Shown here: positions 2,328 to 56,128 of the stretch, one piece after another
Numbering within the stretch: position 1 is the stretch's first letter
Layout: every line of letters begins with the position of its first letter
Assembly (NCBI GenBank): GCA_002842735.1
Contig: PHEB01000001.1
Coordinates: 124,001-188,000, forward strand
Direction of reading: 5' to 3'
DNA from: Alphaproteobacteria bacterium HGW-Alphaproteobacteria-7
GTDB taxonomy: Bacteria; Pseudomonadota; Alphaproteobacteria; Sphingomonadales; Sphingomonadaceae
Length of the DNA: 64,000 nt
Translations under genes and position numbers: made by a program
Notes under the pieces: generated by a model
What the model saw: only the letters and a program-made list of their open reading frames with translations
Database searches by the model: none
What the model was told of the DNA's origin: nothing

Positions 2328-2798
2328 TTACGCAGCCTCCCCGGCACGGGGAGGGGGACCAGCCGCAGGCTGGTGGAGGGGACTCGCCACACGCGCAACG
2401 ATGGCTTGCGCCGCGTCGCTCGCATCACGCAGCACACGCTGTGCCGAGACCCTCAAAACCCTGAACCCGTTTTCTTTCAGAAATGAAACGCGACGCTCGT
2501 CAAACTTGGCACGGTCGATGTTGTCATGCGCGCTCCCATCGACTTCCACGACGAAGCGTTCCGAAACGCAGCAGAAATCGACCACATAGGGGCCGATCGG
2601 GTGCTGTCTGCGGAACTTGTAACCGCCCGGGCGCTGCCGCAGCAATTGCCACAATGTCCGTTCCGGCAGGCTCATGTCCTTGCGCAGTTGACGTGCGAGG
2701 ATCACCTCGGGCCTTGCGACGAACCGCGAGTCCCCACCACCGCGCTGCGCGCGGTCCCCCTCCCCGTTCCGGGGAGGATTTGATGCCGCAAGGCTCAC
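2328..2798 (-). CDS. DUF559 (Vsr-like endonuclease fold) protein inserted in the pnt operon
   Basis: A 156-aa frame with the DUF559 pattern: SLPERTLWQLLRQRPGGYKF, RRQHPIGPYVVDFCC, FVVEVDGSAHD and FLKENGFRVLRV. DUF559 is related to the very-short-patch-repair endonuclease fold; the D of VVDF and the E/D of VEVDG would be the metal site. Cellular role unknown. The GTG start at 2798 overlaps the pntAA stop (GTGA), and no ATG occurs before residue 42. Both ends of the protein are encoded by 52-nt inverted repeats (RNGEGDRAQRGGGDSR at the N-side; SPLHQPAAGPPPRAGE at the C-side). Transhydrogenase operons do not need this gene, so it looks like an inserted cassette that keeps the operon translated. 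Confidence 0.85.
   Translation of the reverse strand: MSLAASNPPRNGEGDRAQRGGGDSRFVARPEVILARQLRKDMSLPERTLWQLLRQRPGGYKFRRQHPIGPYVVDFCCVSERFVVEVDGSAHDNIDRAKFDERRVSFLKENGFRVLRVSAQRVLRDASDAAQAIVARVASPLHQPAAGPPPRAGEAA
2336..2387. repeat. Left terminal inverted repeat of the DUF559 cassette
   Basis: 52 nt beginning CCTCCCCGGCACGGGGAGG and ending GGAGGGGACTCGC. It holds two hairpins: CCTCCCC-GGCAC-GGGGAGG and ACCAGCC-GCA-GGCTGGT. It matches the reverse complement of 2726-2777 at 44 of 52 positions. Confidence 0.9.
2726..2777. repeat. Right terminal inverted repeat of the DUF559 cassette
   Basis: Reverse complement begins CCTCCCCGGAACGGGGAGG and ends GGTGGGGACTCGC. Its inner hairpin is ACCGCGC-GCA-GCGCGGT, against ACCAGCC-GCA-GGCTGGT in the left copy. 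Six of the eight differences between the copies are paired changes that preserve this stem. Confidence 0.9.
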
Positions 2799-3916
2799 CC
2801 CAACAGCCTTTCATTCACAACCTTGCCGCCCTGCGTCAGCCGGATCGCATTGCCGATTTCCTCGTCGAGCACGGGCTTGCCCGCCTCCTTGTCCCAGAAA
2901 GCCGAAAGGAAGTTGTAGTGGTTGCGCGCGAACAGTGCCGATGCGTCGGCGGGCAGGTGCGCGGGGGTGTTGGAATAGCCGATGATTTTGACCCCGTGCT
3001 TGACCACGACCTCATCCGGCTTCGACCCTTCGACATTGCCGCCCTGCGCCACCGCAAGATCGAAGATCACGCTGCCGGGCTTCATCGTCGCGATCTGCGC
3101 ATCGGTGATGAGGCGCGGCGCAGCACGGCCCGGGATCAGCGCGGTGGTGATGACGATGTCCTGCTTGGCAATATGCGAACTCACCAGCTCGGCCTGCGCC
3201 TTCTGGTATTCCTCGCTCATTTCGGTAGCATAGCCGCCCGAACCTTCGCCTTCGATCCCGGCGACATTTTCAACGAAAATCGGTTTCGCGCCGAGCGACT
3301 GGATCTGTTCTTTGGTCGCGGAACGCACGTCGGTAGCTGAAACCTGCGCGCCCAGCCGCCGTGCGGTGGCAATCGCCTGAAGCCCCGCCACGCCCACGCC
3401 CATGATGAAGGCGCGCGCGGCCTGCACAGTGCCCGCCGCCGTCATCATCATCGGGAAGGCGCGGCCATAGGTATCCGCCGCCGCCAGCACCGCCTTGTAT
3501 CCGGCGAGGTTCGATTGTGACGACAGCACGTCCATCGACTGCGCGCGGGTGATGCGCGGCATGAACTCCATGCTCAATGCCTCAAACCCGGCCGCAGCAT
3601 AGGCATCCACCACATCGCGCCGCGTGAAAGGATCGAACAGCGCAGCCACCCACGCGCCGGGCCGCGCGCCTTTCAGCAGCGCCACGTCAGGCGCCTGAAT
3701 GCCTAGCACAATGTCGGCGTCCTTCACCGTTGCGGCAGCGGTGCCAAGGCTCGCGCCCGCTTCACCATAGGCCGCATCGGTGACAGAAGCCGTCACACCC
3801 GCCCCCTTTTCAACCGCGACATCGAGGCCCAGCGCGGCGAATTTCTTGACCGTTTCCGGCGAGGCGGCAACGCGCGTCTCACCGGGCGCGCGTTCTTTCA
3901 GGATCGCGATTTTCAC
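2795..3916 (-). CDS. pntAA: NAD(P) transhydrogenase subunit alpha part 1 (NAD-binding)
   Basis: A 373-aa soluble NAD(H)-binding domain, homologous to alanine dehydrogenase. It opens MKIAILKERAPGETRVAASP, has the Rossmann segment MGVGVAGLQAIATARRLGA and the mobile-loop region SEEYQKAQAELVSSHIAKQD. The start is GTG. The gene is followed by the DUF559 cassette and then pntAB and pntB, which complete the enzyme. A 40-aa oxidase subunit IV-like gene lies immediately upstream on the same strand. Confidence 0.95.
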   Translation of the reverse strand: MKIAILKERAPGETRVAASPETVKKFAALGLDVAVEKGAGVTASVTDAAYGEAGASLGTAAATVKDADIVLGIQAPDVALLKGARPGAWVAALFDPFTRRDVVDAYAAAGFEALSMEFMPRITRAQSMDVLSSQSNLAGYKAVLAAADTYGRAFPMMMTAAGTVQAARAFIMGVGVAGLQAIATARRLGAQVSATDVRSATKEQIQSLGAKPIFVENVAGIEGEGSGGYATEMSEEYQKAQAELVSSHIAKQDIVITTALIPGRAAPRLITDAQIATMKPGSVIFDLAVAQGGNVEGSKPDEVVVKHGVKIIGYSNTPAHLPADASALFARNHYNFLSAFWDKEAGKPVLDEEIGNAIRLTQGGKVVNERLLG

Positions 3917-37330: not shown

Positions 37331-37398
37331 GTGAGTCCCCGTGCAGACGGGGATCTCGTTCGGAACTGCGGGAGGCTCCCGCCTGCGCGGGAGCTCAC
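37331..37398. repeat. Palindromic repeat family B, copy 1 (between def and recR)
   Basis: Two hairpins, GTCCCCGTGCAGACGGGGAT and GCGGGAGGCTCCCGC..GCGGGAG, bounded by GTGAG and CTCAC. It aligns almost base for base with 38857-38922 in fmt. Confidence 0.88.
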
Positions 37399-54838: not shown

Positions 54839-56128
54839 TCAAACATCCTTGGCCAGCCGCAGGCCGGTGAATTGCCAGCGCTGCTGGGGATAGAAGAAAT
54901 TGCGGTAGGACGCGCGCGAATGACCGCGCACCGTGGCGCAGCTTGCTCCGCGCAGCACCACCTGCCCGCTCATGAATTTGCCGTTATATTCGCCAACTGC
55001 TCCTTCGGCGATGCGAAAGCCGGGATAGGGTAGATAAGCTGAGCGGGTGAACTGCCAGCAATCGCCGAACAGGTGCTGCCCACCCTGCGGGAGTGGCGGC
55101 GCGGCGCCATCAAGCTGATTGCCAGCGGCGGGATCATGGCTGGTCGCTATCGCCTCCCACTCGAACTCGGTCGGCAGGCGGTGCCCCGCCCAAGTGGCAA
55201 AGGCATCCGCTTCATAATACGAGACATGGCTAACCGGCGCATTGGTATCGCGCGGCTGCCAGCCTTGGTGGGTGAAATGCTGATCGTCACGCCAATACAG
55301 CGGTGCGCCTATGTCTTGCACCTGCACCCAGCCCCAGCCATCAGACAGCCACAGCCGCGCATCGCGATAGCCGCCGTCAGCGATGAAGCCATCCCATTCG
55401 CCATTGGTCACCAAGCGGTCAGCCAGCGCAAACGGTTCGATCAACACGCGGTGACGCGGGCCTTCATTGTCGAAGGCGAAGCCACCACCTTCGTGGCCGA
55501 CAAGCGCGATCCCGCCGGGGTGCTGGTGCCAGCCAAGTGATGCTTGTGCGTTTTCCCGCAAATCGGAAGTGTGCTTTGCCTGCCTGAGATCCCCGCCTTC
55601 GCGGGGACTCACAACGGCTTCATACATCGCCGGGCCAAGCGGATTCTGGAACAGCGCGTGTTTGATATCGGTCAGCAACAATTCGATGTGCTGTTGTTCA
55701 TGCGCAACGCCCAATGCGATCAGGCCGCTGAGCGCCGGATCATCCAGCAGCGGCGTCATCGCGTCATTCACCGCTGCGCGCCATTCCTGCACCTCGGCCA
55801 GCGTCGGGCGTGACAGCATCCCACGCTGCCCCCGCGCCATCCGCGCGCCTTCCGCTTCGTAATAGGAATTGAACAGGAACGGCCAGTCTTCGCGCCACAG
55901 CCGATAACCCGGCAAATAATCGCGTAGCAGGAACGTTTCCCAGAACCACGTCGTATGCGCGAGGTGCCACTTGGCAGGAGAGGCATCCTCCATCGATTGC
56001 AGGCTGGCATCGGCATCGCTCAGCGGGCGAACCAGCGCCTCGGTCAGCGCGCGGGTGGCGCGAAAACTATCACCGAATGTTGCCGCATCTGCGCCGCTGA
56101 TGGGATTTTGCCGTTCGCCACGAGGCAC
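54839..56128 (-). CDS. egtB: Ergothioneine synthase EgtB with half-palindrome insert
   Basis: 429 aa iron enzyme that joins hercynine to a thiol and oxidises it. DinB-like domain with iron ligands in KWHLAHTTW and VAHEQQHIELLL; C-terminal formylglycine-enzyme-like domain with HRLPTEFEWEAIA and VLRGASCATVRGHSRASYRN. In the linker, about 25 residues (VVSPREGGDLRQAKHTSDLR on) are foreign to the family and start with the translation of palindromic element B. No egtA/C/E in the window. Confidence 0.93.
   Translation of the reverse strand: MPRGERQNPISGADAATFGDSFRATRALTEALVRPLSDADASLQSMEDASPAKWHLAHTTWFWETFLLRDYLPGYRLWREDWPFLFNSYYEAEGARMARGQRGMLSRPTLAEVQEWRAAVNDAMTPLLDDPALSGLIALGVAHEQQHIELLLTDIKHALFQNPLGPAMYEAVVSPREGGDLRQAKHTSDLRENAQASLGWHQHPGGIALVGHEGGGFAFDNEGPRHRVLIEPFALADRLVTNGEWDGFIADGGYRDARLWLSDGWGWVQVQDIGAPLYWRDDQHFTHQGWQPRDTNAPVSHVSYYEADAFATWAGHRLPTEFEWEAIATSHDPAAGNQLDGAAPPLPQGGQHLFGDCWQFTRSAYLPYPGFRIAEGAVGEYNGKFMSGQVVLRGASCATVRGHSRASYRNFFYPQQRWQFTGLRLAKDV
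55584..55612. repeat. Palindromic repeat family B, half copy (in frame inside egtB)
   Basis: On the minus strand GTGAGTCCCCGCGAAGGCGG followed by GGATCTCAG reproduces the first hairpin of family B (GTGAGTCCCCGTGCAGACGG in copy 1). The second hairpin has decayed or is absent. Confidence 0.75.

Follow-up and report, generated by a model that had tools for sequence, protein, structure and literature searches.

Palindromic repeats are widespread in bacteria. Genes of the DUF559 family are also widespread, and to our knowledge no role has been established for them. Among the closest described systems is the combination of REP/REPIN repeats with RAYT (TnpA-REP), an HUH tyrosine transposase. RAYT genes are known partners of palindromic repeats other than those described here, and one large palindromic-repeat superfamily, common in alphaproteobacteria, has no dedicated transposase according to a survey (PMC3733652). 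The CIR repeats of Caulobacter are about 110 nt long, with two long inverted arms, a linker and GANTC sites, in the account of Chen and Shapiro (2003) as given in PMC2229807, and were reported to be strictly intergenic (PMC10969869). Rickettsia palindromic elements (RPE), of about 105–150 nt, are described as lying in frame in protein genes, and the excerpts of the RPE literature used here name no mobilising gene.

Two nucleases are also relevant. I-Bth0305I belongs to the EDxHD homing endonucleases (PMC3943268), and Caulobacter VsrA, which has a DUF559 domain, was proposed as a mismatch-repair nuclease linked to cytosine methylation (PMC12907096). No earlier report linking DUF559 with palindromic or inverted repeats was found in the open-licence PMC literature, and a subscription paper on the subject could exist.

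The locus studied here lies in the window, i.e. the whole stretch of 64,000 nt that was analysed. As judged from sequence comparisons, it is probably a member of a family of hairpin-ended mobile DNA whose DUF559 nuclease acts on its arms. An initial annotation had described a DUF559 ORF framed by 52-nt inverted repeats within the transhydrogenase (pnt) operon, and its coordinates, repeat identity and family assignment were all confirmed (table 1). The ORF matched DUF559 (PF04480) with 109 bits against a Pfam gathering score of 20.6, and the only further Pfam match, to MTES_1575, lay below threshold. The two arms were identical at 44 of 52 positions (85% complementary), were 338 nt apart, and formed the sole inverted repeat detected within 2200–2900.

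Table 1. Features of the DUF559 locus and its operon (window positions).
Feature	Position	Strand	Remarks
pntB (PNTB), third operon gene	451-2046	minus	
pntAB (PNTB_4TM), downstream neighbour	2043-2324	minus	
DUF559 ORF, 156 aa, between pntAA and pntAB	2328-2798	minus	GTG start; TAA stop just outside downstream arm
GGGGAGG, outer end of downstream arm, Shine-Dalgarno-like	2336-2342	minus	11 nt before pntAB start codon
Downstream arm (3' of DUF559 gene), 52 nt	2336-2387	minus	outer hairpin 2336-2354; inner hairpin 2358-2374, stem AGCC
Upstream arm (5' of DUF559 gene), 52 nt	2726-2777	minus	outer hairpin 2759-2777; inner hairpin 2739-2755, stem GCGC
GTGA, DUF559 start codon overlapping pntAA stop codon	2795-2798	minus	
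pntAA (AlaDh_PNT), upstream neighbour	2795-3916	minus	

Each arm folded into two hairpins on either strand, as had been described, with z-scores of −3.1 to −4.3 that were equalled by 0–2 of 200 dinucleotide shuffles. The claim that six of the eight differences between the arms preserve pairing was also correct, and all six fell in the inner stem (AGCC/GGCT versus GCGC/GCGC); one of the remaining two lay in the outer loop and the other in the GGTGGT/GGTGGA tail. An Rfam scan of the locus returned no credible family. A PADLOC scan gave no more than marginal matches and thus no support for a known defence system.

The initial annotation had suggested that paired hairpins be sought around other DUF559 genes of Sphingomonadales, and these were indeed found. 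The sample comprised 132 DUF559 loci from Sphingomonadales genomes, 117 of which, including the window locus, scored at least 73 bits; the presence of arms was scored by matching patterns up to 300 nt from the DUF559 gene. For scanning contigs, a broad alignment of 16 proteins proved too divergent. Arms of the same class were present on both sides at 90 of the 117 high-scoring loci, while 16 had one recognisable arm, 4 had unlike arms and 7 had none; the class labels are descriptive only, since the patterns were drawn up after the loci had been inspected. By the same pattern test, no arms were detected at any of the 15 low-scoring homologues, of which 14 form one conserved clade and one (L073) is a divergent exception.

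An ungapped inverted-repeat scan of these loci with shuffles is independent of the arm-class patterns. In a further set, significant inverted arms were present in 68 of 80 relatives in named genomes, mostly of Sphingomonas, Novosphingobium, Sphingobium and Erythrobacter. Armed examples were also found in Caulobacter, Asticcacaulis and Chelatococcus; by order, most were Sphingomonadales, with some Caulobacterales and Rhizobiales.

When the seven arm classes were placed on the DUF559 protein tree, 12 changes were required (minimum 7), compared with a mean of 82 for shuffled labels and none of 200 shuffles as low, on a tree with few columns and many weak forks in which near-copies at the same locus inflate clustering. 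Two relocated cassettes are free of the weakness that arises from such near-copies. In G014 and G032 the cassette follows an acyl-CoA dehydrogenase gene, and in the tree it is nested among the cassettes of the crtI-LOG site. The crtI-LOG site of G014 is empty, G001 has the reverse arrangement, and in relatives of G014 and G032 the acyl-CoA dehydrogenase site is free of a cassette. Sequence comparison thus gives good support to a mobile family with hairpin ends and DUF559 genes that diverge along with them.

Pairing in the stems was also conserved across the family. Among distinct inner hairpins of standard length from the fetched loci, 33 of 35 had all four variable pairs intact, versus 6.9 expected when the halves were shuffled. 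The initial annotation had concluded that the folded shape seems to be selected. The covariation of the stems was borne out, but selection for the folded shape is only one reading of it; template-switch correction of imperfect palindromes could yield the same pattern, and covariation by itself is therefore no proof of selection.

At the pntAA-pntAB junction, measured in 73 genomes, the two genes were 0–4 nt apart in 17, a class A cassette was present in 9 and a class E cassette in one (G097), and the other junctions held unrelated or unidentified sequence. G100 likewise carries a class A cassette at this site. The invariable presence of DUF559 at this junction, together with a lack of flanking repeats at other DUF559 genes, had been named in advance as the pattern of an ancient operon member. 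The empty junctions and the arms found elsewhere do not conform to it. At the crtI-LOG site the spacing was 0 nt in 9 genomes, and 7 of the fetched genomes carried a cassette.

Most arm classes occupied mainly one locus across the genus, with class A at several. Such a distribution would be expected of old, mostly vertical units, and counts against mobility. A target-site duplication of fixed length, the mark of a classical DDE transposon or MITE, was not evident at the crtI-LOG, valS or acyl-CoA dehydrogenase sites in between-species comparisons. It was also found that the pntAA-pntAB junction is a hotspot in general, with unrelated small ORFs in many genomes of the genus, including a recurrent one of 121 aa (e.g. 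L078, L090, L096 and L103). In the class E locus of G097 (L165), ispE lies next to the right arm, and part of its 5' end is duplicated in the left flank of the cassette, which may be a by-product of insertion.

Mini-elements of about 130 nt were scattered over the window's genome, each with a class A arm at one end, a class E arm in inverted orientation at the other, and about 37 nt between the two. Solitary REPs were considered for the dispersed hairpins of this genome and were rejected, the hairpins being parts of two-armed mini-elements. Two mini-elements lie in frame inside valS. The valS gene of most relatives has no insert at these places, and that of some relatives has unrelated inserts within the same loops. 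As a separate observation, in the valS genes of L365, L369, L380, L384 and L390 two loops carry in-frame repeat-like inserts that differ from species to species.

A covariance model detected mini-elements in 48 of 114 genomes. The number of matches per genome, with both strands of the palindromic element included in the counts, was 9.0 with a class A/E DUF559 gene versus 0.90 without one (p 1.4e-12; the genomes are not phylogenetically independent). Higher scores were likewise seen in genomes with class D or F. Among genomes lacking class A/E, class D was significantly higher, in four genomes only, and no significant effect was observed for classes B, B2, C and F. Mini-elements were present without a class A/E DUF559 gene in some genomes (G007, G124), and eight genomes had a class A/E gene but few or no mini-elements.

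The system resembles REP/REPIN and RAYT in its dispersed short hairpin pairs, its covarying stems and a nuclease-type gene set between paired inverted hairpins. As in a RAYT/REPtron, these hairpins are of the genome-dispersed type, and repeat copies are commoner where the enzyme gene is present, genomes being treated as independent. Unlike in REP/REPIN, each arm is a double hairpin with GGGGAGG at its end, and the enzyme is of the Vsr/EDxHD type. Neither the Pfam matches nor the predicted fold of the window ORF indicated an IS200/IS605-type HUH tyrosine transposase; since this defining enzyme is absent, the DUF559 family is not a RAYT. The parallel drawn in the initial annotation, i.e. the logic of a REP-associated transposase with an unrelated enzyme, agrees with the Vsr-like fold and with the dispersed arm-bearing copies that accompany matching nuclease classes.

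Compared by their description in the source cited above, the CIR repeats share with the mini-elements two inverted arms, a linker and GANTC, with at least one GANTC at an arm's inner edge in 7 of 8 aligned mini-elements. Unlike the strictly intergenic CIR repeats, the mini-elements also occur in frame in valS. In that respect they resemble the RPE as described in the excerpts, from which they differ in having a nuclease-bearing relative with the same arm type.

In the proposed mechanism, the full unit would be a cassette of about 440–470 nt, made up of an arm, the DUF559 gene and an inverted arm, and the mini-elements would be its short derivatives. The DUF559 nuclease would bind the folded arms, either as cruciforms or as single strands during replication, and would cut at the arms or at the target, after which break repair may copy the element to new places. 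Copying of nuclease-bound arms in this manner would cause nuclease and arms to diverge together. Insertions would last mainly where they do little harm, either in the gap that separates the stop codon of one gene from the start codon of the next or in frame within protein loops, and the outer GGGGAGG could act as a ribosome-binding site for the next gene. Action of the nuclease on the arms and on the movement of mini-elements would be the simplest mechanism, and we infer that the enzyme recognises its own hairpins.

A profile of 30 relatives, compared with the PDB, matched NGO0050 (3hrl, 1.4e-28), I-Bth0305I (3r3p) and PvuRts1I. The best matches of the predicted fold were again NGO0050 and I-Bth0305I, with Vsr, which like Caulobacter VsrA has the same fold, further down, in line with the Vsr-like fold stated in the initial annotation. 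E85, H91 and D100 were invariant in the family alignment and D87 nearly so, which, on alignment and fold, provides the E, D, H and D residues of an EDxHD catalytic domain. The protein is similar to I-Bth0305I in catalytic-domain fold, conserved acidic and His positions and mobile-gene behaviour. It differs in having hairpin-arm flanks and no intron, and in the lack of an extra, tethered DNA-binding region, its 156 aa comprising a core of about 110 aa and low-confidence tails. In the AlphaFold2 model, pLDDT exceeded 90 for most of the DUF559 core and was about 45–68 for the arm-encoded tails.

The presence of the pnt cassette on the pnt-gene tree required 9 changes versus a mean of 10.5 with shuffled labels, i.e. 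it is patchy. Recent transfer had been expected at this site but was not seen in the silent divergence, which was similar for the cassette and the pnt genes: divergence at fourfold sites of the DUF559 core was 0.10–0.69 per pair of pnt-site copies, and for most pairs it was similar to or above that of the pnt genes. The pnt cassette thus reflects either an early acquisition followed by many losses or several gains that are themselves old. Protein identities of 69–97% together with silent differences of up to 0.69 point to purifying selection on the pnt-site copies. Fourfold divergence was 0.03 in the right (downstream) arm and 0.19 in the left arm, so that the nucleotide sequence of the arms is itself under constraint. 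The initial view of the locus as a mobile cassette is supported by the paired arms, the relocated cassettes, the empty sites and the mini-elements, but not by any recent movement at pnt.

A free-standing homing endonuclease would cleave alleles that lack the cassette at a single host site, and repair would copy its gene in, the hairpins being terminator or ribosome-binding furniture and not the substrate. The kinship with I-Bth0305I, the one locus kept by most classes and the patchiness at pnt would all fit such an enzyme. Class-specific arms, mini-elements that track the nuclease class and related cassettes at different loci are not predicted by it, and the silent divergence at pnt gives no sign of recent transfer, making this explanation rather unlikely.

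Alternatively, the arms might be moved by a different enzyme encoded elsewhere in the genome, such as a RAYT or some other transposase, with DUF559 as a passenger between two of them. The lack of a DUF559 gene in the mini-elements would fit such an enzyme, and RAYT genes do partner other palindromic repeats (PMC3733652). A passenger would not be expected to diverge in parallel with seven arm classes, nor does the occurrence of the DUF559 family between arms of all these classes favour this explanation, which we consider quite improbable.

In a refinement of the earlier description, the arms of the window locus were found to be largely translated themselves. The start codon that overlaps the pntAA stop, correctly noted before, was kept in every one of the nine class A cassettes at pnt whose 5' end is intact, window included; the overlap (NTGA) takes the form ATGA, GTGA or TTGA, and the frame continues across the left arm to the DUF559 domain. 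In these cassettes translation of the right arm gives ...SPLHQPAAGPPPRAGE..., with small variations. The position of the GGGGAGG offered as a ribosome-binding site for pntAB was likewise confirmed, and the outer GGGGAGG of 24 among 28 class A/E cassettes is found 4–11 nt upstream of the next start codon. Although these two signals, the almost frozen arms and a silent divergence that follows the operon at pnt would suit an old operon member with a host function, whose arms would serve, as RNA structures, to couple translation or stabilise the mRNA, the 0–4 nt junctions in 17 genomes, the unrelated genes at that junction in many others and the related cassettes in unrelated operons make this very improbable.

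The association may extend beyond alphaproteobacteria. In E. coli K-12, the DUF559 gene ycjD (7408–7761 in L395) has a hairpin, CCCCTCGCCCCTCTGGGGAGAGGGTTAGGGTGAGGGG, just downstream, and in a similarity search with a 52-nt query over this hairpin, E. coli genomes had a median of 19 matching places each; since the hairpin is on one side alone, the association is a lead only. It is conceivable, though we hold it only tentatively, that Proteobacteria harbour a large and so far unrecognised class of mobile elements with hairpin ends, mobilised by DUF559 nucleases (E. coli YcjD among them) and with non-autonomous derivatives of their own, and that this class explains part of the palindromic repeats that lack a known enzyme.

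A nuclease family whose divergence follows that of its flanking hairpins supplies a concrete candidate enzyme for palindromic repeats. The family would offer a way to study hairpin-guided mobility beyond RAYT, testable in Caulobacter and E. coli, and the in-frame copies in valS represent hairpin elements that add peptide loops to an essential enzyme.

Two further features of the window were recorded. A sequence of about 60 nt (TTGTCGCATCGCCGAGAAGCCGAAAACCGGTTCCCACTTTTCGGCGCGATGCT...) is present twice in tandem near the end of pntB (341–452), and two more short hairpins, of the TCCCCG...CGGGGA type and outside class A arms, lie at 37336–37353 and 55590–55607.
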